A stretch of 64,000 nt of DNA from Bacillus bingmayongensis (GTDB taxonomy: Bacteria > Bacillota > Bacilli > Bacillales > Bacillaceae_G), in assembly GCF_000299035.1 (NCBI RefSeq), contig NZ_JH921518.1, positions 966,439 through 1,030,438 of the forward strand, read 5' to 3'. The notes beneath the pieces were generated by a model. That model was not told the origin of the DNA. It did no database searches and saw only the letters and a list, made by a program, of their open reading frames with translations. Position 1 is the first letter of the stretch; the number at the start of each line of letters is the position of its first letter. Positions 36,092-55,449 of the stretch are shown piece after piece. Made by a program: the position numbers and the translations under genes.

Positions 36092-36118
36092 AAAAAAAAG
36101 AGAGCCTTAGCTCTTTTC
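36092..36118 (-). terminator. Terminator of the biosynthetic operon
   Basis: On the minus strand AGAGC-TAAG-GCTCT is followed by CTTTTTTTTC, about 105 bases after the accA stop. It marks the 3' end of the 19-kb operon. The remainder of 35834-36224 has no supported gene. Confidence 0.78.
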
Positions 36119-36224
36119 CTTCCAACAAATTATTTTATAAATATAAGGGGAAGTCTCATCTCTATCTACATGAATACGACATTGAACTGATAATGTTGAG
36201 GTGCTCTCCCCTAGACTCAATCCT

Positions 36225-37220
36225 TTACAAGGCATTTACTATACGTATTTCATCATGAATAGCTTCTGGAGTAGAAAACTCTCCGATTTGTTTATATTTT
36301 TGATAGCGTTGTTTTAGTAACTCTTCTTTCCCTAACCACATTAGTTCATTTAAGGATTCCTTTACAACTTTTTTAATTTCCCCTGCCTGTGCTTTGACAT
36401 TATGATGGGCGCCTCCATTTACTTCTGGAATCAGTGTATCAATAACGCCTAATTCCTTTAAATCATGTGCCGTAACTTTCATTGTTTCAGCTGCTTGCTG
36501 TGCTTTTGAAGCATCTTTCCAAAGAAGTGCTGCCGCACCTTCCGGAGAAATTACCGAATATGTTGAGTTTTCAAGCATGTGAAGATGGTTACATACCCCA
36601 ATTCCTAATGCTCCTCCACTACCACCTTCTCCAATTACCACACTAATCACTGGTACTGTTAAAGCTGCCATTTCAAAAAGGTTATTTGCAATAGCTTGGC
36701 TTTGCCCTCTCTCTTCAGCAGCTTTACCTGGATAAGCTCCCTTTGTATCAATGAAGGTGATAATAGGGCGTTGGAATTTTTCAGCTTGCTTCATAAGTCT
36801 AAGCGCTTTTCTATAGCCTTCTGGATGAGGCATACCAAAGTTTCGATATATATTTTCTTTTGTACCTTTTCCACGTTGATGTCCAATAACAGTTACTGGC
36901 ATACCTTCAAATCTTGCAATACCACCAACCATAGCTGGATCATCTCCATATGAACGATCCCCATGTAATTCTAAGAAATCTGTGCATATTTCTTGAATAT
37001 AATCAAGAGTAGTTGGCCGATTAGGATGTCGTGAAATTTGCACTCGGTCCCAAGGCTTCATTTGTTGATAGGCCTCTTTCTGTAGTACACGTAACTTGTT
37101 ATCTAATTTCTCTAACTCTTCAGATAAATCAAACCCTGTCGTTTCCATATACGTTCTCAAACTTACGATCTTTTCTTTTAACTCTACAATTGGAAGCTCA
37201 AAATCCAAATAATTTTTCAT
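36225..37220 (-). CDS. accA: Acetyl-CoA carboxylase carboxyltransferase alpha subunit
   Basis: Transfers the carboxyl group from carboxybiotin to acetyl-CoA with AccD, making malonyl-CoA. The 331 residues match Acc[79 protein letters not shown] and [13 protein letters not shown], the oxyanion region. It overlaps accD by four bases. It is the last gene of the biosynthetic operon; a housekeeping acc set presumably exists elsewhere, so this one is dedicated to the pathway (inference). Confidence 0.93.
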
Positions 37221-38074
37221 TGTATTCTTCCCCCTGAATGAAGACTTAAAACAGTCGCTAATGTACTACGTATTTGATCCCTTGGTAAAATTTTATCTAA
37301 TTGACCATGTTTTAATAAAAATTCAGCCGTTTGGAATTCATCTGGTAATTTTTCACGGATTGTTTGTTCAATAATTCTTCTTCCAGCAAAACCAATTAAA
37401 GCGCCCGGCTCTGCGAAATTATAATCACCTAGAGAAGCAAAACTAGCAGATACGCCTCCAGTAGTTGGGGATGTCATAACTGAAATGAACAGATTCCCAG
37501 ATAAATCTAACATTTTAGCGGCAGAACTTGTTTTTGCCATTTGCATTAAACTTAGAATTCCTTCTTGCATCCTAGCTCCTCCACTAGCCGTAAAGATAAT
37601 AAAAGGATGTCCCTTTTCTAAAGCAAATTCTATCGCTCTTGTAATTTTTTCTCCTACTACAGATCCCATACTGCCCATTCGGAACCTAGTGTCCATAACT
37701 GCTAGAGTTACTCTATGTCCCTGAATCGTTCCCTCCCCTGTTACTATCGCTTCTTTAAGATCTGTTTTCTTTTGATCAGATTCTAACTTTTTTTCATACC
37801 CAGGAAAACCAAGGGGATTATTTGAAGTCATGCGCCCATCGTATTCCACAAAACTATCTTGATCCAATAAAGATTCAATTCTTTCTAAAGCACTCATCGG
37901 AAAATAATGATTACACTCTACACAGACCTTTAGATTTTTACGCAAATCTTTGCTATATATGATTTTTTTACACTTTGGACATTTAACTACTATTCCATCT
38001 GGAACATCAGACATTAATTGCACAGCTGATACTGTCGAATCTTTCTTTTTTCTTGGAATTAATTCTTTAATCAC
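37217..38074 (-). CDS. accD: Acetyl-CoA carboxylase carboxyltransferase beta subunit
   Basis: AccA partner. The N-terminal zinc ribbon [20 protein letters not shown] continues to a fourth Cys (VECNHYF), giving C-x2-C-x15-C-x2-C. The carboxyltransferase core has [20 protein letters not shown] and [16 protein letters not shown] start at GTG 38074 ([16 protein letters not shown]), nine bases after GGGAGGA; the in-frame ATG at 38089 overlaps this ribosome binding site. About 285 residues, normal for AccD. It is coupled to accA by overlap. Confidence 0.93.
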
Positions 38075-38146
38075 AACTCTTCCTCCCATTTATTAGCTAA
38101 CAAACACTTAAGAATTCATTCGATTCAAACGAAAAATTTGCATCCA

Positions 38147-38500
38147 TTATACTCTTGTAAGATGAGTAGTTTTAAATCCAGCTTGTGTGTACTTCAATCC
38201 ATATCCGATAGTTCGATCCATTGCTATATGAGCTGTCCAAACAATTCCTAATGCTAAAATCCAATCTTGGTTTGTATACAATCCAATTGCAAATACAGAA
38301 ATAGATATTACGTACGTATGAAAAAAGTTATAAACACTTGCACCTATTTTTTCATTTATCGCATATCCAAGCATACCAATATCAGGTACAAGTATTAATG
38401 CTAAAAATAACCACCAACTAAACTCATAATAACTATATAAATAGATAGTTGTAACCAGGGTAATTAATCCTTCTGTTTGTAGCACTACTTTATTATTCAT
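38147..38500 (-). CDS. DUF4260 membrane protein, copy 1
   Basis: A 117-residue protein with four hydrophobic helices and the family pattern LVPDIGMLGYAINEKIGASV, YNFFHTYVISI, GIVWTAHIAMDRTIGYGLKY. DUF4260 proteins are of unknown function. It is embedded between accD and accC in the biosynthetic operon, and a close paralogue lies just outside the other end of the locus at 58532. The His and Asp residues inside helices (FHTY, WTAHIAMDR) could make an intramembrane active site (speculative). Confidence 0.8.
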   Translation of the reverse strand: MNNKVVLQTEGLITLVTTIYLYSYYEFSWWLFLALILVPDIGMLGYAINEKIGASVYNFFHTYVISISVFAIGLYTNQDWILALGIVWTAHIAMDRTIGYGLKYTQAGFKTTHLTRV

Positions 38501-38557: not shown

Positions 38558-39925
38558 TTAAACACTTTGTAGCTCTTTCGTTTTCAGATCATGTAATTCT
38601 AAAAATTTGGTATTAAATTCACCAGAAATAAATGTTTTATTATTTAACAGATTTAAATGAAAAGGAATGGTCGTTTTAATACCAGCAACATGAAATTCAC
38701 GAAGCGCTCTTTCCATTCGCTGAATTGCTTCTTCTCTCGTTTCTCCATGAACAATCACTTTAGCTACCATAGAGTCATAATAAGGAGGTATACTATAACC
38801 TGCATACACAGCTGAATCAATACGTACTCCAAATCCTCCAGGAGGGAGGTATTCATGAACAGTTCCAGGTGATGGTATGAAATTCTTTTCTGGGTTTTCT
38901 GCATTGATGCGACACTCTATCGCCCAGCCATTAAACTTCACATCGTCTTGTTGATATCTTAGTTTTCCTCCAGAGGCTACCCGAATTTGCTCCTTAATTA
39001 TGTCAATACCTGTAACCATTTCTGTAACTGGATGTTCAACTTGAATTCTTGTATTCATTTCCATAAAATAAAATTTATTCTCTTTTAAATCATAGATAAA
39101 TTCGATTGTACCCGCCCCTGAATAATTAACAACTTGAGCTGCCTTTACAGCTAACTTCGCCATCTTTTCTCTGGCTTCCATCGTGATACCAGGCGACGGT
39201 GTTTCCTCTACTAACTTTTGAAGCCTTCTTTGAATTGTACAGTCTCTTTCTCCCAAGTGAATGACATTGCCATAACTATCTGCTAAAATCTGAATTTCAA
39301 TATGACGAAAATCTGTAATATATTTCTCTAAATATACATTAGGATCCCCAAACGCCGCTTTCGCTTCTTGCTGAGTAAGACGAATCCCATCAACTAATTC
39401 TTTACTGTTTTGAGCAACTCGGATACCTTTCCCTCCACCACCAGCAGTCGCTTTAATAATAACTGGGTATCCGATTTCTTCCGCTATCCTAATTCCTTCT
39501 TCAACACTTTTAATAATTCCATCTGATCCTTGAGTAACGGGTACACCAGCTTCTATCATTGTTTTTCTTGCGATATCCTTTGTTCCCATTTTCCTAATCG
39601 TCTCAGGAGTTGGCCCAACAAATATAAGGTTGCATTCCTTACAAATTTCAGCGAAATCAGCGTTTTCCGCTAGAAATCCGTATCCTGGATGAATCGCATC
39701 GCATTGTGTTAACTTTGCTACAGAAATAATATTGACTGTATTCAAGTAACTTTCTTTTGCAAGCGCTGGACCAATACAATGAGCTTCATCTGCTAGGTGG
39801 ACATGAAGGGCATCTCTATCAGCCTTAGAGTACACTGCCACTGTTTTAATTCCCAATTCTCTTGCGGAACGAATAATTCGAACTGCTATTTCACCACGAT
39901 TCGCAATTAATAGCTTCTTAATCAA
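38558..39925 (-). CDS. accC: Biotin carboxylase
   Basis: ATP-dependent carboxylation of the biotin on AccB. The 455 residues contain the N-terminal [38 protein letters not shown]-grasp glycine loop [53 protein letters not shown] and [20 protein letters not shown]. All catalytic residues expected for AccC are visible. It is 12 bases after accB in the operon. It is a normal single-domain AccC, not a fused carboxylase. Confidence 0.95.
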
Positions 39926-39937: not shown

Positions 39938-40423
39938 CTACTTTTTCCTTACCAGAAACATTGGTTGATCATATTCTACAAGCTCTCCGTTGCCAACCAA
40001 TATCTCTACAATTTCCCCTTGTACTTCTGATTCAATTTCATTAAATAATTTCATAGCTTCTACAACACAAACAATCGTTTCTTTATCTATTTTTTGTCCT
40101 ACTTTGACATACGGATCTGCTCCTGGTGAAGGAGAGCTATAGAAGGTTCCTACCATGGGAGAGGTAATTTCATATAAATCTTCTTTCACATATGTTTCTT
40201 CTACTGGTTTCAATTCTTCCACTTGATTCGTGCAAGCAACTTCTGTTACCAGATTTTCTACTGGAAAAGATTCAACTTTCTTCTTTTCCGTTTCAACATA
40301 CTGCGTATTTTTTTTCCTATTTCTTTTTAAGCGTAACTTTACGTCTTCTGTCTGATACTCCAATTCATCAATAGAAGATTGATGAAGCGCATCTATTAAC
40401 TTTTGAATTTCTGTAATCTCCAT
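39938..40423 (-). CDS. accB: Biotin carboxyl carrier protein
   Basis: A 161-residue BCCP: an N-terminal dimerisation segment (MEITEIQKLIDALHQSSIDE), a Lys/Glu/Val-rich linker, then the biotinyl domain from ITSPMVGTFYSSPSPGADPY. The biotin Lys lies in VEAMKLFNEI (the usual motif is EAMKM; Leu replaces the second Met, which is common in bacilli). The conserved thumb SPSPGADPYVKVG is present. GAGGGAGAAAAAAG is the ribosome binding site. It precedes accC, as in housekeeping accBC pairs. Confidence 0.93.
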   Translation of the reverse strand: MEITEIQKLIDALHQSSIDELEYQTEDVKLRLKRNRKKNTQYVETEKKKVESFPVENLVTEVACTNQVEELKPVEETYVKEDLYEITSPMVGTFYSSPSPGADPYVKVGQKIDKETIVCVVEAMKLFNEIESEVQGEIVEILVGNGELVEYDQPMFLVRKK

Positions 40424-40609: not shown

Positions 40610-40993
40610 TTATTTTTCCGTTAATACTACAACAGACGAAGCTGTAGTTTGCGTATGCGTAATACTTACATATATATTTATACCGTTAGGCAAAAAACTT
40701 TTCGTCTTCTCAGATAAATAGAAAACTGGTTTCGCACTTTTATCACTTAATATCTCTCCATCATGAAAACCGAACGTTCCACAAATCCCTGTGCCAATCG
40801 CTTTAGACATGGCTTCCTTTGCACTAAATCTCCCAGATAGCCATTCCATTTTTCGCTTTTTTTGTTTTATGGAATAAAATTGTTCCTTTTCAGCTTCAGT
40901 CAGGATTTGATTAACTAGTGATTCAGGCCGTTTATCATACATTGACTCAATTCTATTTATCTCAACCGAATCTATCCCAATGCCATAGAACAT
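40610..40993 (-). CDS. acpS: Holo-ACP synthase (phosphopantetheinyl transferase)
   Basis: Adds 4'-phosphopantetheine to acyl carrier proteins. The 127 residues carry the AcpS signatures GIGIDSVEINRI and WLSGRFSAKEAMSKAIGTG (metal-binding Asp and Glu) and the C-terminal YVSITHTQTTASSVVVL. A housekeeping AcpS must exist elsewhere, so this copy probably serves the two ACPs of this operon. ACGGAGGAGGGGC precedes the ATG. A 186-bp spacer without a strong hairpin separates it from accB. Confidence 0.92.
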   Translation of the reverse strand: MFYGIGIDSVEINRIESMYDKRPESLVNQILTEAEKEQFYSIKQKKRKMEWLSGRFSAKEAMSKAIGTGICGTFGFHDGEILSDKSAKPVFYLSEKTKSFLPNGINIYVSITHTQTTASSVVVLTEK

Positions 40994-41009: not shown

Positions 41010-42230
41010 TTAGTTCTCTAAAGCAATTCCATACTGTATAGGACTCATCATTTGATATTTCAACGGATGGTTATCAAGCATTTTCATTTTTATTACTCTC
41101 TCTTTACACTCCTGATCGGTTTTTGCTGCTAAACCATTTTCTTGTTCTTCTTGAAAATTTGATATAAAAGATATAATTTTCTTTCTTTTCTCTTCAAATT
41201 CTATAAATAATTCATGCTTTAACGGTTCTGCCTGTACATCTTCATTTTGTAACCCTTGTATAATGTACGGTGCTAACTCTACTGCATCTTGCATCGCGAC
41301 ATTCACACCTTGTCCTAGAACTGGAGACAACGTATGTGCAGCATCTCCAATTAAAATGAGTCCATTTCTAGACCACTTCGGTGCAAATGTAGTAAAAATT
41401 TTAAGTAATGTAGTATCATTCCAATCTTTAATATGTTCCTGCATCACCTCTTCTAATCTTGGTTCTAGCGCGATGACTTTCTCTCTAAACGCTTCGATTC
41501 CTTGTGCGTACGTCTCAGAAATCCCATTATTTTCTATATACATACCAACTCTTAAAAGATTTGGGAAAGTAGGTAAGAGAATTAAGTGATTATTTCGATC
41601 TACTTTAATAATACTTGTTTCTTTCCATTCCTCTGGCCATCCCTCTGGTTTCGGAACTTTAAACCAGAAAACAAGGTCACGATCATATTCATTTTTTTCA
41701 AATTGAAGTTTAGATAATTTTCGAACTGTGCTGAATCGTCCATCCGCTCCAACAACTAATCGACTTTTGATTTTTAGACTTTCAGATCCTCTTTTGCAAA
41801 TAATTCCATCCACTTCTCCAGCTTCATTTTCCATTAGTTCCAGGCAACTTGTATCATTCCAATATGAGAAATTTTCAAATTGATCTGCTTCTTTTAAAAT
41901 CACATTTAAAATAGTTGGCTGGGGCATATCAATTCCATACTTTTGTTCATGATTAAAATTTTTAAAATCGATACCTAAAAGTTTTTCATCTTTGTCATAC
42001 ATAAGGAGTTTTTGTACCTTCAAATATTGGTCTTTTGGAATTTTATCAAACAGGCCAAGTTGTTTTAAAAGTGATACCGATCCAGGTGCAATTGTTTCTC
42101 CTCTAAAATTCCTTTTTAGAGTAGCACTTTTTTCTATAACAAGTACGTCAATTCCAGACTTCGCCAATAAGTATCCTAACAATGCTCCTCCAGGGCCACT
42201 TCCCACAATCACAACATCTTTAGTTAACAT
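41010..42230 (-). CDS. Group A FAD-dependent monooxygenase
   Basis: A 406-residue flavoprotein with the GxGxxG motif VVIVGSGPGGALLGYLLAKSG, the NAD(P)H/FAD motif VVGADGRFSTVRKLS (DG motif) and the C-terminal FAD motif LIGDAAHTLSPVLGQGVNVA. RNFRGETIAPGS resembles the UbiH/halogenase-like superfamily, but the halogenase Lys/Trp motif WxWxIP is not visible. A tailoring hydroxylase or epoxidase is likely. It overlaps the FabZ-like gene by 11 bases, so the two are coupled. Substrate unknown; probably the ACP-bound or released product. Confidence 0.82.
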   Translation of the reverse strand: MLTKDVVIVGSGPGGALLGYLLAKSGIDVLVIEKSATLKRNFRGETIAPGSVSLLKQLGLFDKIPKDQYLKVQKLLMYDKDEKLLGIDFKNFNHEQKYGIDMPQPTILNVILKEADQFENFSYWNDTSCLELMENEAGEVDGIICKRGSESLKIKSRLVVGADGRFSTVRKLSKLQFEKNEYDRDLVFWFKVPKPEGWPEEWKETSIIKVDRNNHLILLPTFPNLLRVGMYIENNGISETYAQGIEAFREKVIALEPRLEEVMQEHIKDWNDTTLLKIFTTFAPKWSRNGLILIGDAAHTLSPVLGQGVNVAMQDAVELAPYIIQGLQNEDVQAEPLKHELFIEFEEKRKKIISFISNFQEEQENGLAAKTDQECKERVIKMKMLDNHPLKYQMMSPIQYGIALEN

Positions 42231-42732
42231 TTTTTGTCTCCCCCTTACTTGGTAGATAAAATACTAATTCACCCTTTGCAACTCTTCCATTGCTGTCAGC
42301 AAAACTGATAAGTGCACTTGCTGTATAATAGTTTCCTGTATTTTGTGTAAGTCTCACTCGAATTTTAAGAGAATCACCTGGTTTCGCTTTGTTATAGAAA
42401 GTAAAGTTATTCGTCTTTACTAAGTAACCCTCTTGCTTAGCATCAGAGTCTTCATCAAACTTAAATTTATTTTGTTTATACGTAGTAAGAATTAGACTTG
42501 CTTGCGCTGCCATTTCCACCATTAATACCCCTGGGAGTATAGGGTTCTTTGGAAAATGGCCTTTAAAATACGGTTCATTATGGGCCAAATGTTTTAAACA
42601 AATAATTTCCTCATCACTCACTGTTACAATTTTGTCTACGAAAATGAACGGAGCTTCTTGAAGTAATACTTCATTTGGATTAACCATCCACTCTTCTACA
42701 TCTACTTTTACTCTTACTTTTACAGATGACAT
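42220..42732 (-). CDS. FabZ-like 3-hydroxyacyl-ACP dehydratase
   Basis: A 170-residue hot-dog-fold dehydratase. The active-site helix region FKGHFPKNPILPGVLMVEMA has the catalytic His (GHFP) and the helix Glu (VEMAAQ). It is larger than housekeeping FabZ (about 144) owing to an N-terminal extension (MSSVKVRVKVDVEEWMVNPN) that replaces the usual short lead. CTAAGGAGGGTGACTGC is a strong ribosome binding site. With FabG and the ketosynthase it supplies keto reduction plus dehydration; no enoyl reductase is encoded, pointing to unsaturated or polyene chains (inference). Confidence 0.85.
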   Translation of the reverse strand: MSSVKVRVKVDVEEWMVNPNEVLLQEAPFIFVDKIVTVSDEEIICLKHLAHNEPYFKGHFPKNPILPGVLMVEMAAQASLILTTYKQNKFKFDEDSDAKQEGYLVKTNNFTFYNKAKPGDSLKIRVRLTQNTGNYYTASALISFADSNGRVAKGELVFYLPSKGETKNVN

Positions 42733-42747: not shown

Positions 42748-43530
42748 TTAGATCATAGAATGATTTAATATAGTTTTTAAACGGTTTACGACTTCATCAC
42801 TTTTAAAGCTATTTTGCAGGGCTTCATTTTCCATACAAAGTTGATCTTCTAAAGTATTTTGTAGTGAATGTTTCAATAACATCTTTGTACGCTGTATTGC
42901 CGAAAAGTCTTGTGAGTGTATTTTTTTACAAAATTCTTCTATATGACTCTTCATTTCTTTTGTAGAAGGAAATACTTCGTTAAATAATCCCCAATCTTTT
43001 ACCTCTGCTGCTGTAAATAAATCACCAGATAGGATAATAGAATATGTTCTCGTCATCCCAATTAAGCGAGGGAGAAAATAACTGCTACTTAAATCTGCTG
43101 TCACTCCCATATTGTGAAAATTTTCAATAAACTTAGCTCGTTCTACCGCAAGACGATAATCACATCCTAGAAATATATTTAGCCCTCCTCCGTAGGCATA
43201 TCCATTGAATCCTACAATAGTCACCTTTGGAGAGTAATAGATTTCTTTTATGACTTCATTCAAAATATCTAGCATGTTTTGCAATTCAGCGTGATTTTTT
43301 GTTTCGCCTATTTCGAGTAACCCAGGTAGTGATGGACCGCTAGAAAAGAAACTACGATGCTGGCTCAAAAATACAATGGTCTTAATATCTGGATTTTGAT
43401 TTGCATACTTGATTTCTTCTAGCAACTCTGTAGCAAATGTAAAGTCTAAACTATTTTTTGTTTCTTTAGAATCCAAATAGATATAAGCTGTTGCTGCATG
43501 ATCATTACATATCGTTTTTACACATTTCAT
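42748..43530 (-). CDS. Crotonase-fold enoyl-CoA hydratase/isomerase
   Basis: A 260-residue crotonase. The oxyanion-hole segments are FSSGPSLPGLLEIGE and GYAYGGGLNIFLGCDYRLA; the helix FHNMGVTADLSSSYFLPRLIG resembles dienoyl-CoA/enoyl isomerases rather than hydratases with a Glu pair (no obvious catalytic Glu at the first site). I start at ATG 43530 (MKCVKTICNDHAATAYI), preceded by GGAGAAAGAAG; a GTG 18 bases earlier overlaps it. A double-bond isomerase or hydratase acting on the chain is likely. Confidence 0.82.
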   Translation of the reverse strand: MKCVKTICNDHAATAYIYLDSKETKNSLDFTFATELLEEIKYANQNPDIKTIVFLSQHRSFFSSGPSLPGLLEIGETKNHAELQNMLDILNEVIKEIYYSPKVTIVGFNGYAYGGGLNIFLGCDYRLAVERAKFIENFHNMGVTADLSSSYFLPRLIGMTRTYSIILSGDLFTAAEVKDWGLFNEVFPSTKEMKSHIEEFCKKIHSQDFSAIQRTKMLLKHSLQNTLEDQLCMENEALQNSFKSDEVVNRLKTILNHSMI

Positions 43531-43540
43531 CTTCTTTCTC

Positions 43541-45037: not shown

Positions 45038-45038
45038 A

Positions 45039-45803
45039 TTAATCCCCCCATTTCTCCAATTGTTCTTTTATTTCTGCCAAGATGTCGGCTGCTAACGCTC
45101 CGTCTATAGCCCTATGATCAAATGTCAAACATACTGGTAGAATAGGACGGATTTCAATGCTACTATCTATTACTTTTGCTTTTTCTTCAATCGCCCCGAT
45201 CCCAAAGCACAGGGTAGCCGAAGTGATTGGATAAAAGTGTTTGATAGGTCTATGCCCAAGAGAAGTAACGGTAAATGTTCCTTGAATATTATGCCTTTTC
45301 TTTAAATTACCAACGTTCATTTTGTATAGAATATTTCCTAACCAAGTAGGTAAAGAATGAAGCATTTTAATAGGTTTAAAATCTTCTATTTCTTGAAATT
45401 CAGTGTTTTTATAGTACTCTATATCATGTTGAATCTCTTCTAGAGGCTTTGAATCACTGTTAAACACTTTCCCCGTTAAAACAACTCTTTCCTTATTAAT
45501 TGTTTTATCGAGAGTAAACTTTGCAATAATTTCATTGTAAACGGCCATTTTAGGCGAAAGTGCTTCTTTGACTGATACATTTGCTTGCGGGTATTTCTTT
45601 AATACCTTTGAAATACCTTTGATAATAAAAGCAATGTAACTAATTTTGGTTTGCGTGCTCGCGTAGATATAGTCTCTGGACTTTTGAAGATTAGACACAT
45701 CGACATCTACACTAAGATAAACAGGACTAAATTCTTTCGCATGATCTAAAAAATGATATGTGTGTTTCCTTTGGCTAGGATAATTCAGAATCTCACTGCT
45801 CAT
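45039..45803 (-). CDS. 2-oxoacid dehydrogenase E2-like acyltransferase (Agg4 type)
   Basis: A 254-residue stand-alone catalytic domain of the dihydrolipoyl acyltransferase superfamily, without lipoyl or E1/E3-binding domains. The catalytic TFDHRAIDGA (HisxxxAsp) is intact near the C-terminus; FTVTSLGHRPIKHFYPITS matches the usual GTFTISN.G region. Stand-alone E2-like acyltransferases of this kind (Agg4, QmnD3-like) acetylate the primary alcohol of a tetronate before elimination. I start at ATG 45803 after GAGGAGAC, overlapping the ACP gene end. Its position after KAS III, FkbH and ACP is the agg1-2-3-4 order. Confidence 0.82.
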   Translation of the reverse strand: MSSEILNYPSQRKHTYHFLDHAKEFSPVYLSVDVDVSNLQKSRDYIYASTQTKISYIAFIIKGISKVLKKYPQANVSVKEALSPKMAVYNEIIAKFTLDKTINKERVVLTGKVFNSDSKPLEEIQHDIEYYKNTEFQEIEDFKPIKMLHSLPTWLGNILYKMNVGNLKKRHNIQGTFTVTSLGHRPIKHFYPITSATLCFGIGAIEEKAKVIDSSIEIRPILPVCLTFDHRAIDGALAADILAEIKEQLEKWGD

Positions 45804-46032
45804 TTTTTGTCTCCTCAATTAATTCCTGCAATTCTCCAATTGTTTGTACTTTAGCATATCGCTCCATGCTTAAACGAAGGTTAAATTCGTCCTCAACATG
45901 AGTTAGTATACGTAAGCTGTTTACAGAGTCCCATCCTTCATAATCAGATAACTCTTTATTAAAAACAATTTCTTCTTCTTCCACTTCTAAAATATCTGCA
46001 AGTAATTCCGTTAGCGTACTTGTTAAAGTCAT
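45793..46032 (-). CDS. Glyceryl-ACP-type acyl carrier protein (Agg3 type)
   Basis: A 79-residue ACP with the phosphopantetheine site GWDSVNSLRIL (Ser36). The start is ATG 46032, preceded by AAAGGGGAGGTAG; the longer frame to 46068 reads through that site. It overlaps both neighbours: the FkbH gene ends at 46029 and the acyltransferase begins at 45803. Such ACPs next to FkbH carry the glyceryl unit made from 1,3-bisphosphoglycerate. It differs clearly from the other ACP (50564), which has GLGLDSVEALD. Confidence 0.88.
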   Translation of the reverse strand: MTLTSTLTELLADILEVEEEEIVFNKELSDYEGWDSVNSLRILTHVEDEFNLRLSMERYAKVQTIGELQELIEETKNEQ

Positions 46033-47918: not shown

Positions 47919-47930
47919 AGGGACCACCTT

Positions 47931-48980
47931 TTATACGTATTGTAAAACAAATCCTGTTTTTATCCATTTCGATGATTCTATTGCTACTCCAACTACTTTT
48001 TCACTCAATTTTATTTTTCCACTTAACTTTGCTAGCTGAACATAAGGTAAGGCATTTCCGTTATTTCCAGTTTCTTTTACACAATTCGTAGTTTTATCAA
48101 AATCCAATTCCGCATACTCTATAATTCTCTTAGTCATATTCCAACCTAATTGCGGAGGGAGGAAGTGATCTACTTCATCTTTTTCCCATTTGTTTTCTTC
48201 CAGTAATGTACTGAACATTTCCTTTGTTAAGGTAGGAACGTGTTCTTCAATGGCTTTATAATCTTCTTGAGCTGATGGATATTTCTTAGCAATTTGCCTT
48301 GCCGTCATTCCTTGCACATCAGAAGGAATATTCCCAATCCAATTCATTACCTGTGCAGGCTTACGATTCAACCCTTCGAATTTATTTGAAATTTGTAAGA
48401 ACTTAAAACCAGGTGCTTTTGTATTTTTACTCAGAATAGCTGCACCTGCACCATCTCCAAATAATACATAATTAATCAATTCTGAAGAACGCAGCTTTTT
48501 GAAATCTCTATTTAAATCCATATATTTGTTACATACATCTCCACCAACTACTAATGCATGTTTATAATCATTTGCTTTTAAAAACTGTTGTGCGACATCT
48601 AGTCCCTGTAACGCTCCTGAACACCCTGCTTGAATTTGATAGGTAGGGATTCCTTGCAAACCAAGTCTGTCAGCTAAAAGATTTACTGTCGCAGGCATTA
48701 AATGATCTGGAGTAGCTGTGGATAGTATAATAAGGTCAATTTCTTCTAAGGAGTGTAATGGGGATTTCTGAAAAGCATCCAAAGCAGCTTTTTCACATAG
48801 ATCAATTAAATCATAATCTATTTTTTTCTCTTCAAAGTTAATTGCATAATATCTAGATTCATTTCCAATAACATTTTCAATCCACTCAGCTCTTACACTC
48901 AATGTATCTTCCATGTCTTTATTTGTAATTGGCGTACCAGGTAAAAATGTTCCTAAACTAACAATTTTAATTTCATCCAC
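47931..48980 (-). CDS. KAS III (FabH)-like ketosynthase, Agg1 type, atypical His site
   Basis: A 349-residue thiolase-fold protein with the acyl Cys in QIQAGCSGALQGL (Cys120) and the Asn region ETGNNGNALPYVQLAK (about 306). Where FabH has the catalytic PHQ, this one has DHFLPPQLGW: Pro276 takes the place of His. FabH-like proteins of tetronate clusters join the glyceryl-ACP to the beta-ketoacyl chain instead of priming fatty acids; loss of the decarboxylation His would fit a non-decarboxylative condensation (inference). It is 12 bases before fkbH. Confidence 0.86.
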   Translation of the reverse strand: MDEIKIVSLGTFLPGTPITNKDMEDTLSVRAEWIENVIGNESRYYAINFEEKKIDYDLIDLCEKAALDAFQKSPLHSLEEIDLIILSTATPDHLMPATVNLLADRLGLQGIPTYQIQAGCSGALQGLDVAQQFLKANDYKHALVVGGDVCNKYMDLNRDFKKLRSSELINYVLFGDGAGAAILSKNTKAPGFKFLQISNKFEGLNRKPAQVMNWIGNIPSDVQGMTARQIAKKYPSAQEDYKAIEEHVPTLTKEMFSTLLEENKWEKDEVDHFLPPQLGWNMTKRIIEYAELDFDKTTNCVKETGNNGNALPYVQLAKLSGKIKLSEKVVGVAIESSKWIKTGFVLQYV

Positions 48981-48994: not shown

Positions 48995-49738
48995 TTAAAT
49001 GACTGTCTCAATACCTGCACCAATATGAATGTTTTCTCCACCCATTGTTGGAACGGATGGCTCAACGAGCATATTCAAAGCAGGAACTAATTCTTGTAAT
49101 TTTAATAACCTTGGGCGTAGTGCAAATATCTCTAACTTCTTCTTTAATTCTTTTTTCGTTGCAGAATCAAAGTCGTTATCATAATATCCAAATGTCATGG
49201 CATTTACATTCAATTTGAATGCTGCTAACTCATGTGACATACATTTCATAAGAGAAATCTTTCCGTGATTTAGCATCGGAGAACTTGGGTAATATTCCGG
49301 ATATAATACATCGAAAATAAGTGGGAAGATTACCTTTCCTTCCTTCGCTTTAATCATTTGAGACGTGACAACTCGGCTAAACAAGTAGATTTTTTCAAAC
49401 ATTTCCTCAATCATTTTTTCTAAACCAATCGGATCTTTCTTAAAGTAACTTGTTTCATCAAGCATTTCATTTCCGTGAATTAAGGTATCGATTCTACCAA
49501 AGCGGCCAGCAATTTCTTCTACCTCTTTCTCTAAAGATTCAAAACAGATATGAGTATTACAGATAAGCATGTACTTTTCAAAGTTCATTCCTGTTTCTTC
49601 CAAGTGCTTTTTATACTTATTTTTCGCTTCTTCATTTTGAAAGTAAAAGATTACATTATAACCACGTTGTAAATAAAACTCCCCAATGAATTGATTAAAA
49701 GATTGTTCACAGTTTGTAATGAGTAAATTTTTCTCCAA
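48995..49738 (-). CDS. Degenerate SDR-fold protein (probably non-catalytic)
   Basis: A 247-residue Rossmann-fold protein of the short-chain dehydrogenase family, but the cofactor motif TGxxxGxG is replaced by LLITNCEQSFNQFIGE and the YxxxK site reads SPMLNHGKISLM, with no Tyr. NNAG is replaced by IHGNEML. It has the same length as the intact FabG next to it (49751), so a duplicated and decayed or repurposed partner subunit is likely, like the inactive KR-like partners of some type II systems. AGGAGGAAATC-type site (AAGGAGGAAATCTAAGG lies on the other side, in the KAS III gene leader). Confidence 0.72.
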   Translation of the reverse strand: MEKNLLITNCEQSFNQFIGEFYLQRGYNVIFYFQNEEAKNKYKKHLEETGMNFEKYMLICNTHICFESLEKEVEEIAGRFGRIDTLIHGNEMLDETSYFKKDPIGLEKMIEEMFEKIYLFSRVVTSQMIKAKEGKVIFPLIFDVLYPEYYPSSPMLNHGKISLMKCMSHELAAFKLNVNAMTFGYYDNDFDSATKKELKKKLEIFALRPRLLKLQELVPALNMLVEPSVPTMGGENIHIGAGIETVI

Positions 49739-49750: not shown

Positions 49751-50494
49751 CTATCTCAAAAATCCACCGTCTATTTTAAATACTGTACTAGTAAAATATG
49801 AATTCTCATCATCTGCCAAAAACATAACAGCATTTGCGATTTGTTCAGTTTGGCCTAATGCCTTTGTATTCGTATGATATAAAAAGTTACTTAGCTTATT
49901 ATCTGGCACATGCTGAATCATTTCTGTTTCAATCATCCCAGGAGCTACAGCATTAACCCTTATGCCATGCGTACTGTACAGTCTTGATAACATGCGTGTA
50001 AATCCTATAATAGCTCCTTTTGAGCATCCATAATTTGTTTGCGCTTCTCTTCCATTTACAGCACTTACTGAAACCATGTTAATGATGTTCCCACTTTTTT
50101 GTTTCACCATATACGGAATAACTTCATTACAGAAATGATATGTACCACCGAAATTTGTTTGGAAAACATCATTCCAATTAACTTCCTCGGTTTGAAATAT
50201 AAAATTATCTCGATTGATCCCTGCATTATTGACTAACACATCAATTTTCCCATGGTTATTCATAATGTCTTGGATCGTTTGGTGTACAAAATTTCTATCA
50301 TTTACTTCTCCTTTATAGAAATAAATTTCCTGCCCATATTTATTTAACTCATCTTGTATCTGATTGGCAGCCTTTTCACTTCGTGCATAAATCCCAACTA
50401 CTTTTGCACCGCTTTTTGCTAATTGGACTGCAATTTCTTTACCTATCCCTCTGGTCGCTCCTGTTACAATAACAACCTTATCTTTTAGAGTCAT
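49751..50494 (-). CDS. FabG-like 3-ketoacyl-ACP reductase
   Basis: A 247-residue classical SDR with every hallmark intact: VVIVTGATRGIGKEIAVQLA, DVLVNNAGINRDNF, MVSVSAVNGREAQTNYGCSK (Ser and YxxxK) and RVNAVAPGMIETEM. It uses NADPH by family rule (TGATRG with a following basic residue further on). It is 12 bases before the degenerate SDR gene and 70 after the ACP gene. It should reduce the beta-keto chain on the main ACP. Confidence 0.92.
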   Translation of the reverse strand: MTLKDKVVIVTGATRGIGKEIAVQLAKSGAKVVGIYARSEKAANQIQDELNKYGQEIYFYKGEVNDRNFVHQTIQDIMNNHGKIDVLVNNAGINRDNFIFQTEEVNWNDVFQTNFGGTYHFCNEVIPYMVKQKSGNIINMVSVSAVNGREAQTNYGCSKGAIIGFTRMLSRLYSTHGIRVNAVAPGMIETEMIQHVPDNKLSNFLYHTNTKALGQTEQIANAVMFLADDENSYFTSTVFKIDGGFLR

Positions 50495-50563: not shown

Positions 50564-50845
50564 TTATACCGTCTGCAATAAACGCTCACTAATATAAGCT
50601 GCTAATGTTTCTACCGAACTAAATGTCTCACGTATTTTATCTTCAGGAAGACCCTGCATTTTAATTTGAAACTCTTCCTCAACTCCTGAAATCACATCTA
50701 ATGCTTCTACAGAATCTAATCCTAATCCATCTCCAAATAAAGCTTCATTATCACCGATTTCTTCTGCCGTAATATCTTCAAGCTCTAATCTCTCTACTAA
50801 GATTTTTTCCTTAATAATGTTTTTGATTTCTTGAATATTTTTCAT
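50564..50845 (-). CDS. Acyl carrier protein (chain-carrying)
   Basis: A 93-residue ACP with the phosphopantetheine attachment GDGLGLDSVEALDVI (Ser45), strongly acidic helix II (EALDVISGVEEEF), typical of type II PKS/FAS. GGAGGCAATTCAA lies before the ATG. It is separated from the ketosynthase by an AT-rich gap of about 85 bases that may allow separate translation levels. It probably carries the growing chain, with the ACP at 45793 carrying the glyceryl unit. Confidence 0.9.
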   Translation of the reverse strand: MKNIQEIKNIIKEKILVERLELEDITAEEIGDNEALFGDGLGLDSVEALDVISGVEEEFQIKMQGLPEDKIRETFSSVETLAAYISERLLQTV

Positions 50846-50929: not shown

Positions 50930-53224
50930 TTATTTAACTTTGCTTACTACAACAGCGGCATTATTACCATTTAAAGAGGTACTCACAATTAGACCCTTTG
51001 AAAACTTTGTAACATCTTGATTAAAATATTGATTCACAGCTTCTACATCCTTGATTGTTTCACCAAATAGTTCAGCTGCCACATATAAATGATTCAATGA
51101 ACTAGTAGACTCTAAATATCCTTTTGAATTAAAGCAGTGCTTTAATACATGATCCGCAACGTTTAATTCATTAAATAAATTTTCATAGATATCTATGTCC
51201 CTAGATAAACCATTTGAATTGTAGAAAATAAAATCAATTTCTCCGATAGGAACAGCTGAGTTTTCTAAGGCACTATCAATTGCCTTTTTCAAACTAACTG
51301 CATCACTTCCAAAGGTTAAGCCAGTCCCTATAATTTCTGCATAGGCTGCTTTTCCATCTAAATCATTAGATAGTACAAGACAACTACTTCCTTCAGCTAT
51401 TGGATATACACTTTCATTCAATCCAAGTGACTTATCTATTTCAGCCGATAAATCAGACAACTCATCACCTGATCCAATGAGACATTTTGAATGACCATTA
51501 TCCTTTATGAATTCATAGCCATATACAGCCCCAAAGAGACCATCATTCCCACCTGTACTAATGGAACTACTGAATCCGCGAATATTAAATTTCTTAGCAA
51601 CTTTTCCTGCTACTGAATTTAAAACCATGTCAGGAAAATAAATGCTACTAGCATATTCTAGACCTTTTTTCAGAATAGATTGAAAATACTTTTCAGAACT
51701 TTGCAAACTACCTCTAGCTGTTCCATAAATAAAAGCAGTATCTTCATTTTCTAAAGGTGTTTGTATCTCTGCATCTTTAAAGGCTTGATCAGCAGCAGCA
51801 ATACTATATTGCGCCAATGAATTCATCCTTCTTTCATATAAATCTTTATTATATTCTTTAAGACTAAAATCTAATTTAGCCGGAATATCTTCTTCTGAAA
51901 TCAATTTTTCTATAAGACTAGTTTGTTTTTCGGCAGATATTGTATTGCAATTCCCTAAGCCAGTAACATAGACTCTATTATCTGTATCAACTGATGATAC
52001 CGCTTGTCCATTCTCGGTATAGTCTTTCCAATTTCTTGATACAATAGATGCATTATGTCCACCAAAAGCGGAGTTGTTACACAAGAAATAAGTCGTCTTT
52101 TGCTTTTTCATCTCATTGGTGATCAGATTCGCATTTTCGCACCCTTCTCGCTTTTCTTGAAAGTTAATTGTAGCTGGCAATAAATCTTCCTGCATTAACA
52201 ATATGGACGTAGTATATTCTATAGATGCTGCAGCTCCTAAATTATGTCCGAAATAAGCCTTACTTGAACTAATCGGAATTTCTTTAAATTTCTCAACTCC
52301 AAAAACTCTTTCCAATCCAGATAATTCTGCGGTATCATTGGCTTTTGTGCCTGTTCCATGCGTATTAATATATTCGATTTGACTAGGTTGCAAAGAAGCT
52401 TGTTTTAATGCACGGATAACAGCATTTTTAATCCCTTCTCCTTCTGGATGCGGGGCTGTTTCATGATATGCATCACTACTAAGTCCATATCCACACACTT
52501 CTGCATAGATTTTTGCATTTCTCGCTAATGCATGATCTAGTGTTTCTAATACTACAAAAGCTGCTCCTTCTCCTAAACTAAGTCCATATGAAGTATTGTA
52601 TGGAGAACACGGAACTGAATTTAATGCACGTAGCGCATTAAAACCAGCATAAACCGATGAGGACATAGAATCTGATCCCCCTGCAATCATTACATCTGCA
52701 TAACCCTTCTGAACCATTTCAAAACCAAAACCAATCGCATTTCCACTAGCAGCACAAGCCGTATTGATTGTTACTACAGGCCCGCCTAAATCGAAATATT
52801 GGGCAACATGGTCTGCTTGATTAAAAAATGGGTATTTTTTCGTTTGTCCTGGATCTAACGACTCGATTGTTCCTTGCTCTTCTAATGAGTTCACACCTCC
52901 GTTACAAGTTCCTAAAGCTAGACCAACCCTATTAGAAGAAGTTTGATTCATCACCATACTTTCATGTAAAGCTTCTTTTATGGAAATGACCGCATACTGC
53001 ACACAAGGATCATACTTTTCGATCTCTTCTGGATTAAAATAATCCGCTGCATTATAATTTTTCACTTCAGCACCTATTTGACTAATAAACTTCTCTGTAT
53101 CAAACTTTCTGAGTGTATCAACCCCTGTTTGTCCTTTTTTCATTTGGTCAATTACTTCTTGTTTATTATGTCCTAAGGATGAAAGTATTCCGATACCTGT
53201 TACTACAACTCTATTCCGCGCCAA
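50930..53224 (-). CDS. Fused ketosynthase / chain-length-factor-like protein
   Basis: A 764-residue protein with two KAS II-like domains in one chain. Domain 1 (about 1-398) is a complete FabF-type ketosynthase: Cys157 in TINTACAASGNAI, His289 in INTHGTGTKAND, His327 in SKAYFGHNLGAA. Domain 2 (about 416-764, starting RVYVTGLGNCNTIS) has lost all of them: the Cys position is Gly559 in SISTGGNDGLFG and the last His region reads SKGYLESTSSL. This is the KS-alpha/KS-beta (CLF) arrangement of type II PKS, but fused. The start is TTG 53224 after GGGAGGGATAAGGT. Confidence 0.9.
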   Translation of the reverse strand: MARNRVVVTGIGILSSLGHNKQEVIDQMKKGQTGVDTLRKFDTEKFISQIGAEVKNYNAADYFNPEEIEKYDPCVQYAVISIKEALHESMVMNQTSSNRVGLALGTCNGGVNSLEEQGTIESLDPGQTKKYPFFNQADHVAQYFDLGGPVVTINTACAASGNAIGFGFEMVQKGYADVMIAGGSDSMSSSVYAGFNALRALNSVPCSPYNTSYGLSLGEGAAFVVLETLDHALARNAKIYAEVCGYGLSSDAYHETAPHPEGEGIKNAVIRALKQASLQPSQIEYINTHGTGTKANDTAELSGLERVFGVEKFKEIPISSSKAYFGHNLGAAASIEYTTSILLMQEDLLPATINFQEKREGCENANLITNEMKKQKTTYFLCNNSAFGGHNASIVSRNWKDYTENGQAVSSVDTDNRVYVTGLGNCNTISAEKQTSLIEKLISEEDIPAKLDFSLKEYNKDLYERRMNSLAQYSIAAADQAFKDAEIQTPLENEDTAFIYGTARGSLQSSEKYFQSILKKGLEYASSIYFPDMVLNSVAGKVAKKFNIRGFSSSISTGGNDGLFGAVYGYEFIKDNGHSKCLIGSGDELSDLSAEIDKSLGLNESVYPIAEGSSCLVLSNDLDGKAAYAEIIGTGLTFGSDAVSLKKAIDSALENSAVPIGEIDFIFYNSNGLSRDIDIYENLFNELNVADHVLKHCFNSKGYLESTSSLNHLYVAAELFGETIKDVEAVNQYFNQDVTKFSKGLIVSTSLNGNNAAVVVSKVK

Positions 53225-53237: not shown

Positions 53238-54284
53238 CTAAATATGATTCTCCAATTGAATGGCATATTGATTATTTTGGTATTGCTGCATAATTCTCGC
53301 TGGGATTAATTGTTGAATTTGTCCCATGTAATTTGGTGAACCATGAACATCATCAAATGTAATAAGATCTAAATTACTGATATGCTGCTTAATAAACGCC
53401 AATTCTGTAATTGGAATAATTTCATCCTTTAAACTGAACACATAAGTTATAGGAATTTTCAATCTATTAAGAGCGTTTACATCTATACTAAAATTCACAA
53501 GTTCCTTTCTTAACTCATCTTCTGTCAATTCACATACATGACTTAATGTCTTTCTAGTAACAGAAGGAATATCATGCCAGTTTTGATCAGCCAAATGGTA
53601 GAATTCATATAAAGGAGCACCTACTGTTACAATTCCTTTTATTCTACTATCTTGCAAAGCACATTGTATTCCTAATTGTCCCCCAAAGCTCATACCGACA
53701 TAATATGTATGATTAACATCCACCTCATTTTGAAAATGATCTAATATTTCTTGGAGCATCCTATACGAATCTGCTCTAAAAGGTATTGTATTTTCTCCTA
53801 CTTTAGGAAATTCCGTAACAATAACTGAAAACCCTAACTTAGGCCCTACCTCCAAAAACTTATACCATTGTTCTTTAATGGAAACGATACCGCCCATTAC
53901 GATTAACAAAGGCTTTGCTTTATCAAGGTTTGAGGTATATACTTTACATTTTCTACTTTCCAGCTGTAACCATTCCTGTTTAATATCCGTTTGAGATACA
54001 TAGGTGTTAAAGTTTTCTAGTAAACTATCATATACTTTCTTTTGAGTTTCATTACTAACATACGGGAACCGAGCGAAGTTAAAACACTGTATCGCTTCTA
54101 ACTTATCTTGGCTTAAAACTCTATTTCCTTCTTGTAACCATTCATACTCCCATGATCCTTTTGTTTCAGTATTATAAGAAGAAATACGACTCAGTACTTC
54201 AAGCGGAAACGTATACTGTAAATTTTGGGATTTAATATGCAACTCTACAAATTGTTTTAATTCTTCGAGATATTGTTTGCTCAT
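53238..54284 (-). CDS. Alpha/beta hydrolase (Agg5/FrsA-like)
   Basis: A 348-residue alpha/beta-hydrolase with a long N-terminal helical domain (about 150 residues) before the catalytic core. The nucleophile elbow is YVGMSFGGQLGIQ (Ser), the acid is in FSLKDEIIP, and the His is in DDVHGSPNYMG. Hydrolases of this shape (Agg5) eliminate acetate from the acetylated tetronate to give the exocyclic double bond; the E2-like acyltransferase encoded at 45039 would make the substrate. TAGGAGGTCAC precedes the ATG. Alternatives: a thioesterase or esterase. Confidence 0.78.
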   Translation of the reverse strand: MSKQYLEELKQFVELHIKSQNLQYTFPLEVLSRISSYNTETKGSWEYEWLQEGNRVLSQDKLEAIQCFNFARFPYVSNETQKKVYDSLLENFNTYVSQTDIKQEWLQLESRKCKVYTSNLDKAKPLLIVMGGIVSIKEQWYKFLEVGPKLGFSVIVTEFPKVGENTIPFRADSYRMLQEILDHFQNEVDVNHTYYVGMSFGGQLGIQCALQDSRIKGIVTVGAPLYEFYHLADQNWHDIPSVTRKTLSHVCELTEDELRKELVNFSIDVNALNRLKIPITYVFSLKDEIIPITELAFIKQHISNLDLITFDDVHGSPNYMGQIQQLIPARIMQQYQNNQYAIQLENHI

Positions 54285-54303
54285 GTGACCTCCTACTTTT
54301 CAT

Positions 54304-55020
54304 CTAAGTGTGTACCAATTGATATTTTTCAAGTTGTGAGCAAATTTGTTTAGCCAAAAACTCCTGTTGCTCATTGATAAAGAAGTGACCACCATCCACC
54401 GTTATAACCTGCACTTCCTTACTTGTTAACTCTGACCACTTATCCCATTCATTGTTAGTAAGAGGGTCCTCTGTTCCATTAATTATTGTGATTGGAGTAT
54501 CTAACCTTTCACCTGCTTTCTGGTACCTATAGGAACCTATCATATGTAAGTCTGCTTTAATAATAGGAAGATAGATTTTAGCAAAGTACGGATTCTCTAT
54601 TACATCAATGGGAGTTCCTCCTAATGCTTTAATCCTTTTTATTACTTCAGCATTACTCTTACTTACATCTACTAGTGAATCATTTTCATATTGATAAGGA
54701 AGTCGAGTTCCTGTTAAAAACACATGTTTTAACGAAAACCCTTGTCTTTCTAGTAGGTGTGCAAGTTCAAAACTTAATAAACTCCCCATACTATGGCCAA
54801 ACAAGGAAAACTCTTCGTGTTTATCACTCAAGTGCTGCTTAATTATAGAAATTAAATCTTGGCAGCCTTTCTCAAAATCGTATATCAATTCTTTTAACAA
54901 GCGTTTTCCGCGACCTGGAAGTTCTAATGGAATAACTTCCAATTGATTATTTAACAATTTTGCCAATGACTGAAACACCTTAGCTGATCCACCAGCGTAA
55001 TGGATGCAAAATAATTTCAT
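54304..55020 (-). CDS. Type II thioesterase
   Basis: A 238-residue GrsT-type external thioesterase that clears stalled or mis-loaded acyl groups from carrier proteins. It starts MKLFCIHYAGGSAKVFQSLA at ATG 55020, preceded by GAAGGAAGG; in-frame codons up to 55107 are not typical of the family. The catalytic Ser lies in LFGHSMGSLLSFEL, the Asp in INGTEDPLT and the His in VDGGHFFINE. It is the first enzyme gene of the operon, 336 bases after the small peptide ORF, and overlaps no neighbour. Confidence 0.9.
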   Translation of the reverse strand: MKLFCIHYAGGSAKVFQSLAKLLNNQLEVIPLELPGRGKRLLKELIYDFEKGCQDLISIIKQHLSDKHEEFSLFGHSMGSLLSFELAHLLERQGFSLKHVFLTGTRLPYQYENDSLVDVSKSNAEVIKRIKALGGTPIDVIENPYFAKIYLPIIKADLHMIGSYRYQKAGERLDTPITIINGTEDPLTNNEWDKWSELTSKEVQVITVDGGHFFINEQQEFLAKQICSQLEKYQLVHT

Positions 55021-55356
55021 ACATTTCCTTCCTTCAATTTCATTTTGCATAAGTCTTTCTACATGTATCTTGCTGTATGCAAAGTGCTGAACTATATCAT
55101 TTATCACTTATGCAATTCTTAGTTTCTTCCATTTTTAGTAGCTTCAATTCTATGAATCAATATATGAAAAGGATTTTTTCCTAATGTTTGTACTTGCTTT
55201 CGCCTTCTTTCTATAAGTTAATGTTTTATCTTTAAGTTCGAGTAGCACAACATTTTTAACATTTAGATTAGAGAGAGTTTATAAGCTCTTCGAAGTCTTA
55301 AAGATTTTTGATCCTCTACTGATATTCTTTTTTTATTTTTGCTAACACAGTCGTTT
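55021..55356 (-). other. Leader between peptide ORF and thioesterase gene
   Basis: AT-rich, no further ORF that I can support. AAGTTAATGTTTTA (about 55216) and CAACATTTTTAACA (about 55252) resemble degenerate halves of the operator motif found at 55527-55865. A weak AGGAAAAAATCCTTTT hairpin could attenuate read-through into the operon. Confidence 0.35.
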
Positions 55357-55449
55357 TTACACTAATGGCCAAACAGGATCTGTAACCATAACTACCATCA
55401 CTACCACAGCTAAAATTGATTGTAACTTTCCAATTGTTTTAAATGTCAT
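55357..55449 (-). CDS. Candidate quorum-sensing peptide precursor (30 aa)
   Basis: A 30-codon ORF from ATG 55449 to TAA. GGGAGAG lies eight bases upstream and a TATAAT -10 box about 25 bases upstream, so it is the first ORF of the leftward transcript. The N-terminus is short and basic (MTFKTIGKLQS), then a hydrophobic stretch (ILAVVVMVVMV), then a short polar-hydrophobic tail TDPVWPLV. This is the layout of exported pro-pheromones such as PapR or cCF10-type precursors; the tail would be the signal. It faces an NprR/PlcR-like regulator gene. Alternatively it is a leader peptide or small membrane protein. Confidence 0.6.
   Translation of the reverse strand: MTFKTIGKLQSILAVVVMVVMVTDPVWPLV

Follow-up and report, generated by a model that had tools for sequence, protein, structure and literature searches.

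Introduction

Tetronates are antibiotics and enzyme inhibitors known chiefly from actinomycetes with type I polyketide synthases (PKSs). The acyl chain of abyssomicin (aby) is supplied by a type I PKS, and that of agglomerin (agg) by fatty acid synthesis. The part of PMC7489565 concerned with the ring genes describes a FabH-like enzyme that closes the ring and frees the chain, with Agg4- and Agg5-type enzymes performing acetylation and then elimination. In a catalogue of type II PKS clusters (PMC10132072), Firmicutes appear a single time in the list of phyla with ketosynthase–chain length factor pairs (KS-CLFs), and the words tetronate, fused and Bacillus do not occur, at least in its main text. 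Our literature search was confined to open-access papers; among the matches listed, none reported a tetronate from a type II PKS or from Bacillus or Paenibacillus, and none a characterised identical cluster.

Here we consider a window of Bacillus bingmayongensis DNA (assembly GCF_000299035.1, contig NZ_JH921518.1, positions 966,439 to 1,030,438 of the forward strand; the window is the whole stretch of 64,000 nucleotides that was analysed). It carries a minus-strand operon which, judging from its genes, very likely makes a 3-acyl tetronate whose chain would come from an iterative, fatty-acid-like type II system. A peptide quorum switch probably acts on the operon. It is from gene content, protein families, clades and synteny that we infer the product, its chain and polyene nature, and the quorum control.

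Results

Tetronate-ring genes

The set of genes for a tetronate ring is complete, with all five members in the operon:

47931..48980, minus strand: tetronate-type ketoacyl-ACP synthase III (KAS III; PDB 5by7 268.7 bits, next entry 93.3; tree)
46029..47927, minus strand: FkbH-type glyceryl transferase/phosphatase (NCBIfam TIGR01686 340 bits, cut-off 146.65; tree)
45793..46068, minus strand: acyl carrier protein (ACP) 2, predicted glyceryl carrier (profile match; same position in other clusters)
45039..45818, minus strand: E2-like acyltransferase, Agg4-type (Pfam 2-oxoacid_dh; DHRAIDG motif in alignment)
53238..54284, minus strand: AbyA5/Agg5-type alpha/beta hydrolase, putative acetate eliminase (PDB AbyA5, E 1.7e-48; second operon gene)

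An earlier note on this DNA had KAS III, FkbH, ACP and E2 lying contiguously in that order, the order of agg1-2-3-4, with an Agg5-like hydrolase in the same operon; the profile matches bear out the order, and the hydrolase is where it was said to be. The note had also staked its reading on phylogeny, and both KAS III and FkbH fall inside clades with tetronate-type loci. In a tree of 26 rows (duplicate loci skipped, matches covering less than 30% of the query left out), the window KAS III belongs to a 14-row clade with support 99/99 on a branch of 2.68 changes per site, together with six relatives, a Methylosinus protein, four Streptomyces and one Streptantibioticus plasmid proteins, and PDB 5by7, which we take to be AbyA1 of abyssomicin, the entry name saying only 3-oxoacyl-ACP synthase III. 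The other 12 rows, FabH-like and others, lie outside; among them is the KAS III-like protein of locus L049, which was kept in the tree with a very long, tool-flagged branch. Members of the clade have the motif LPPQL (Pro-Pro-Gln-Leu) in the alignment where FabH has Pro-His-Gln. Two of the Streptomyces loci in the clade (L065, L066) have neither E2 nor eliminase matches, and the clade thus marks ring formation, not the elimination steps.

The FkbH tree, in which duplicates L077, L078, L081 and L084 were retained and matches of about 200 residues or less left out, places the window protein in a clade (100/97) of 17 rows from 13 different loci, which holds the tetronate-type loci having an FkbH match plus L049. 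The FkbH gene is overlapped by that of ACP2 by 40 nt. FkbH alone was tried as a marker of the cluster and rejected: matches came from 99 of the 392 genomes sampled for the order of genome G001 and from 9 of the 397 for that of G002, and only three and three of these are shown in this cluster type.

The E2-like protein scores 162 and 133 bits against its counterparts in two tetronate-type loci (tblastn); among E2 proteins from solved dehydrogenase complexes, its best match reaches 53 bits (phmmer, a scale that differs from that of tblastn). The presumed triad of the hydrolase, Ser199, Asp287 and His314, is invariant in the four sequences aligned (window, two Pseudalkalibacillus, Methylosinus).

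Two other loci with such genes came to light. Plasmid pOB3b3 of Methylosinus trichosporium OB3b (L063 15001-31014) carries KAS III, FkbH, ACP, E2, FAD monooxygenase, AbyA5-type hydrolase and type I PKS genes, and is a probable tetronate cluster in a methanotroph. L049 (623-13989) has a different cluster, composed of the tetronate-clade FkbH, ACP, KAS III-like, alpha/beta hydrolase, MatE, ATP-grasp and chorismate-binding enzymes, with a helix-turn-helix–tetratricopeptide repeat (HTH-TPR) regulator and peptide pair in front.

Chain-building and tailoring genes

The remaining biosynthetic genes, all on the minus strand, are as follows:

50930..53224, minus strand: fused KS-CLF, 764 aa (KS half with Cys157, His289, His327; CLF half without active-site Cys)
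50564..50845, minus strand: ACP 1, predicted chain-building carrier (Pfam PP-binding)
49751..50494, minus strand: FabG-type ketoreductase (KR; Pfam/NCBIfam profile match)
48995..49738, minus strand: degenerate short-chain dehydrogenase/reductase (SDR; Gly-rich motif and catalytic Tyr gone in seven aligned sequences)
43541..45037, minus strand: CrtI-like FAD oxidoreductase (TIGR02734 212.6 bits, below the cut-off of 238.1)
42748..43548, minus strand: enoyl-CoA hydratase/isomerase-like protein (profile match)
42220..42732, minus strand: FabZ-type dehydratase (profile match; NCBIfam FabZ models below cut-off)
41010..42230, minus strand: FAD monooxygenase, FAD_binding_3 (profile match; 39% match in the Methylosinus tetronate-type locus)

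The earlier note proposed a KS/CLF working iteratively with ACP, KR and dehydratase, rather than a modular type I PKS. Its ACP, KR and FabZ are present and the profile search found no multidomain type I PKS modules among the 20 operon genes, but KS and CLF are one protein: a single 764-aa open reading frame (ORF) is matched continuously across both halves in eight other clusters, so that the two lie on one chain in nine of nine. The lack of type I modules and the conserved fusion both support an iterative KS-CLF in place of a modular type I PKS. In the KS half, Cys157, His289 and His327 are invariant in three sequences, and Cys157 and His289 in seven aligned; its best PDB match is 9s5h chain B (306.2 bits, next 275.0). 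The sequence profile of the CLF half relates it to ketosynthases, with 9s5h chain C as best PDB match at 86.7 bits and FabF entries near at 82.7.

Two absences that the note had claimed hold up. None of the 20 operon genes matches Acyl_transf_1, the profile for a malonyl transferase, and, as far as enoyl reductases were tested, no NCBIfam model for one reaches its cut-off among the matches listed (the FabL model scores 165.2 on the KR against a cut-off of 328). PF13561, a general SDR model that bears an enoyl-reductase name in Pfam, matches the KR at 192.6 bits and the second, degenerate SDR at 40.1 bits. The degenerate SDR was itself considered as an enoyl reductase and rejected: neither Tyr-x3-Lys, the KR motif, nor Tyr-x6-Lys, the FabI motif, is found in the seven aligned sequences. 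It nevertheless holds its place in all nine clusters, and our guess, by analogy to the KS-CLF, is that it may be a non-catalytic partner of the KR.

Related clusters

Besides the window, the nine clusters compared comprise five in relatives of Pseudalkalibacillus (L001, L060/L003, L046, L116, L117/L118) and three in the order of Paenibacillus filicis (L050/L002, L047, L048). The 11-gene core from KS-CLF to FabZ keeps its order in all eight, with one insertion, a second CrtI-like gene between ACP1 and KR, in three. Identities to the window are 60-70% for the CrtI-like protein (in eight relatives), 52-60% for KAS III and 49-54% for KS-CLF. A plasmid of Pseudalkalibacillus hwajinpoensis has the core in identical order (G338 has the same FkbH stretch and was not counted again), and the cluster of a relative sits on a 355-kb plasmid.

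The cluster family, though rare, reaches across two orders. With the seeds counted, FkbH matches above 600 bits turn up in three of the 397 genomes sampled for the order of G002 and in three of the 392 for that of G001. KAS III searches at E 1e-60 recovered the seed alone both from a phylum sample of 398 and from 25 genomes of the genus of G001; the family of G119 gave 3 of 41, two of them new. A genome scan with just two short patterns, which is not exhaustive, gave three loci: it yielded Paenibacillus filicis strain dW9 and Pseudalkalibacillus spartinae, and L004 with 33% over the KS half. Strain dW9 is named Paenibacillus gyeongsangnamensis in PMC11380503, where a type III PKS is listed and no cluster like that of the window appears in the passage on it.

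Two subtypes can be told apart. All six Bacillus-side clusters have an AbyA5-type gene; no thioesterase match was found in L117/L118. All three clusters in the order of P. filicis have the second CrtI-like gene as well as RmlA- and RmlB-like genes and a glycosyltransferase, and the product of this subtype is likely to be glycosylated, with a ring finished differently. A gene of the malonyl-transferase type occurs in L050 and L047 and was not found for L048. Homologues of the FAD monooxygenase, 30-55% identical to that of the window, lie near clusters of both subtypes, and acetyl-CoA carboxylase genes belong to three of the nine (window, L050, L047/L091). Next to the G1194 cluster, L118 8261-16588 holds a second, separate type II set (KS, CLF-like, ACP, dehydratase, KR) with CrtI-like, FeeM-like N-acyl transferase, FemAB-like, AcpS and MFS genes.

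Regulator, leader peptide and repeats

Upstream of the operon lie a divergent regulator gene, a short ORF in the operon leader that the earlier note had overlooked, and a set of repeats between them:

56030..57298, plus strand: RRNPP-type regulator, HTH + TPR, 422 aa (Pfam HTH_3, TPR_12; divergent from operon)
55357..55449, minus strand: pre-pheromone-like ORF, 30 aa ending TDPVWPLV (operon leader; good ribosome-binding site, GGGAG)
55565-55581, 55656-55672 and 55748-55764, no strand assigned: three exact TTAACA-N5-TTAACA repeats, candidate operators

The leader ORF (55449-55357) translates as MTFKTIGKLQSILAVVVMVVMVTDPVWPLV. It passes a secreted-peptide filter, designed after the window peptide was seen, which an ORF passes in only 4 of 300 shuffles of the region. 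Of 199 genomes sampled, eight encode homologues of the regulator with 26-32% identity (L099-L106), and the 422-aa regulator of L049 is 28.6% identical over 423 aligned positions. A divergent short peptide of secreted type lies beside five of these eight and in L049, so that seven of the ten regulator loci, the window included, pass the filter and L100, L104 and L105 fail; shuffles of the homologue regions gave a passing ORF in 2 to 8 of 300. Near their C termini the homologue peptides read EVWPR, EEWPR or LPWS, those of L102 and L103 being nearly identical. In L118, another HTH-TPR regulator, 39% identical over the 56-residue HTH part only, is divergent from a 46-aa secreted-type peptide before the tetronate operon.

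The three repeats are the only exact matches in the window, spaced 91-92 nt apart, and three exact copies arose in 0 of 2000 shuffles of the intergenic region. With one mismatch two more appear, at 55711-55727 (other strand) and 55848-55864; at two mismatches there is no enrichment in the window (27 matches against 22.0 expected). The copies sit inside longer repeats of 91 nt, 85% alike, which may be a duplication.

A fold search with the poor regulator model returned Rap and NprR mixed with unrelated TPR proteins, and no relative of the regulator was found in viral contigs. The regulator homologue with the LPWS peptide at L106/L110 faces YcaO, TfuA, ThiF and ATP-grasp genes (L110 1160-7434), a cluster of peptide-modifying type, and that at L099/L107 faces transposase- and DnaB-like genes. 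Elsewhere in the window, 19145-20239 encodes a Rap-type protein (RapH_N + TPR).

Operon structure and surroundings

The ORF listing shows 20 successive minus-strand ORFs from 55107 to 36225, overlapped by short opposite-strand ORFs, with gaps of -40 to +84 nt and a sole exception of 186 nt between AcpS and the biotin carboxyl carrier gene; this agrees with the tight, same-strand operon of about 20 genes described earlier. The order of transcription is thioesterase, AbyA5-type hydrolase, fused KS-CLF, ACP1, KR, degenerate SDR, KAS III, FkbH, ACP2, E2-like acyltransferase, CrtI-like oxidoreductase, enoyl-CoA-hydratase-like protein, FabZ, FAD monooxygenase, AcpS, accB, accC, DUF4260, accD and accA. 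The CrtI-like oxidoreductase, degenerate SDR, hydratase-like protein, FAD monooxygenase, AcpS and accABCD thus have to be added to the content given in the earlier note. The features still to be listed are:

54304..55107, minus strand: type II thioesterase (Pfam Thioesterase; translation may really begin at the ATG near 55020)
40610..40993, minus strand: AcpS-type phosphopantetheinyl transferase (profile match)
39938..40423, minus strand: accB, biotin carboxyl carrier (profile match)
38558..39925, minus strand: accC, biotin carboxylase (profile match)
38147..38500, minus strand: DUF4260 gene (profile match; second copy elsewhere)
37217..38089, minus strand: accD (profile match)
36225..37220, minus strand: accA (profile match)
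36101..36114, minus strand: terminator-like hairpin with T-run, directly after accA

The earlier note had placed a terminator at 36092, close to the hairpin (36114-36101), and had claimed a single upstream promoter with it; neither kind of site is enriched in the region over shuffles, with 70 promoter-like sites against a mean of 79.5 and 5 terminator-like sites against 8.6, so that the position after accA is the only thing that speaks for the hairpin.

A plasmid location of the window cluster was considered and, on indirect evidence and although a relative lies on a plasmid, rejected: megablast of the first 25 kb of the window matched no plasmid record, the flanks carry prsA-, glpFKD- and SbcCD-like genes, which are usual on chromosomes, and the G+C of 0.33-0.36 across the operon compares with 0.31-0.38 in the window. 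The two DUF4260 copies, one inside the operon and the other beyond the HTH-TPR regulator (58532-58879), are 53% identical, and the family also occurs beside clusters L001, L046 (split over two frames), L116 and L117, which makes it a candidate for self-protection. About 3 kb left of the operon, at 30268-33044, a MerR-TipAS regulator near an EmrB/LmrB-like MFS exporter represents candidate export or resistance genes. Glycerol (glpFKD-like) and dihydroxyacetone kinase (DhaKL, DhaQ) genes flank the cluster on both sides (2608-6763, 59181-62789); next to a cluster expected to use a C3 unit, this is possibly a coincidence.

Discussion

Let us consider how the encoded enzymes might work together. 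AccABCD would provide malonyl-CoA and AcpS would arm the carriers, upon which the fused KS-CLF, ACP1, the ketoreductase and FabZ would build an ACP-bound chain, expected to be largely unsaturated because no enoyl reductase was recognised. The CrtI-like oxidase and the hydratase/isomerase would probably add, move or isomerise double bonds. FkbH would transfer a glyceryl unit from 1,3-bisphosphoglycerate to ACP2, and KAS III would couple the beta-ketoacyl chain to it via C-C and C-O bonds, freeing the tetronate; the E2-like enzyme would then acetylate the primary hydroxyl, the AbyA5-type hydrolase would eliminate acetate to leave an exocyclic methylene, and the FAD monooxygenase would tailor the product. 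Cell density probably controls the operon through the secreted peptide, which the HTH-TPR regulator would sense and act upon by way of the TTAACA repeats.

Several observations weigh against this scenario, or against parts of it. A housekeeping enoyl reductase could act in trans on the chain. The length and saturation of the chain are predictions, as are the functions given to the CrtI-like, hydratase-like and degenerate SDR proteins. The AlphaFold models are poor, with a mean pLDDT of 52.3 for KS-CLF and 55.9 for the regulator. By tblastn and profile search, no AbyA5-type gene was found in 60 kb around each of the three P. filicis-order clusters, and ring finishing is therefore not uniform. 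The FkbH of L049 falls inside the tetronate clade, yet L049 is without a tetronate-type KAS III, so that FkbH by itself is no proof of a tetronate. On the side of regulation, just two of the nine clusters have a regulator/peptide pair, the two regulators being alike in the HTH part alone, and a TetR gene lies near the other seven, six of them with an MBL-fold gene as well.

The chain might come from ordinary fatty acid synthesis, as in agglomerin, leaving the KS-CLF set separate from or only modifying a product made by the same ring chemistry. The ring genes would suffice with a fatty-acid-derived beta-ketoacyl thioester, as for agglomerin and RK-682, but KS-CLF, ACP1, KR and degenerate SDR precede KAS III in an order that is constant in all nine clusters save for the second CrtI-like insert in three, and we regard this alternative as improbable. 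Still less probable, to our mind very much so, is that the C3 unit made by FkbH and ACP2, whether glyceryl or oxidised, is destined not for a tetronate but for a product such as methoxymalonyl-ACP or an acyl-glyceryl ester. FkbH proteins do serve methoxymalonyl-ACP pathways too, according to a passage of PMC7489565, and the case of L049 would fit; however, no O-methyltransferase or further dehydrogenase of the methoxymalonate set was matched in the operon, and tetronate-type KAS III, E2 and AbyA5-type enzymes are all encoded.

As for the switch, the leader ORF might have arisen by chance, and the HTH-TPR protein might be a regulator of the ordinary kind that binds no peptide. The ORF has just 30 codons and is predicted from sequence, the stretches searched of the seven TetR-type clusters (seven of the eight others) gave no match to the window regulator, and the TTAACA repeats could be a remnant of local duplication. 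Such an ORF is nevertheless scarce in shuffles of the region, as noted above, and similar divergent peptides with W-P or L-P-W motifs stand at six of nine homologous regulators (L049 and five of L099-L106, two of them nearly identical), which makes a chance frame unlikely in our view. The predicted peptide switch may then offer a natural means to turn the cluster on.

If the tetronate assignment is correct, the cluster would be the first union of a type II PKS with tetronate release within the open-access literature searched, and having the enzymes as separate proteins in one short operon of Bacillus relatives would ease reconstitution of chain-building and ring-closing. A bolder scenario can be drawn, which we offer as speculation with little expectation that it will hold: the clusters might define an undescribed polyenoyl tetronate family of Bacillus and Paenibacillus relatives, here peptide-controlled, in which a polyene built by the free-standing fused KS-CLF is desaturated or isomerised by the CrtI-like enzyme while carrier-bound and then undergoes intramolecular cycloaddition with the exocyclic methylene left by the AbyA5-type enzyme, to give a spirotetronate without a type I PKS, the Paenibacillus branch perhaps keeping the acetylated ring and adding sugar.

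Comparison with known systems

With the highly reducing or polyene-forming type II PKSs, such as those for ishigamide and aryl polyenes, the window shares KS-CLF, ACP, KR and a FabZ-type dehydratase, with no enoyl reductase recognised; it differs from them in the one-polypeptide KS-CLF, the predicted release by tetronate formation, the CrtI-like oxidase and the degenerate SDR. KS and CLF are also on one chain in PfaC of polyunsaturated fatty acid synthases (6riw, rank 18 in the fold listing of our poor model), but PfaC is part of a type I megasynthase, unlike the free-standing KS-CLF here with its discrete ACP, KR and dehydratase. In RRNPP quorum sensing (NprR, PlcR, Rgg and Rap families), a receptor of HTH + TPR architecture is encoded next to a short peptide of secreted type, as in the window; the window pair has a divergent layout with the peptide ORF within the operon leader, and its W-P / L-P-W motif was not matched to a named subfamily. 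Since PMC10075063 lists 196 gene clusters predicted to be under RRNPP control, the principle of such control is already known.

The window carries the ring genes of the agglomerin (agg), RK-682 (rk), abyssomicin (aby) and tetromadurin (mad) operons, namely those for KAS III, FkbH, ACP, the E2-like acyltransferase and the acetate eliminase. This matches mad in five of five according to PMC7489565, where the mad chain is assigned to a type I PKS, in contrast to the fused KS-CLF type II system that would build the chain here in Bacillus relatives. The chemistry of the tetronate ring is thus known; what the open-access literature searched did not show is its very probable union, as read from the genes, with chain building by a fused type II KS-CLF in relatives of Bacillus and Paenibacillus, to which the window adds a likely peptide switch.

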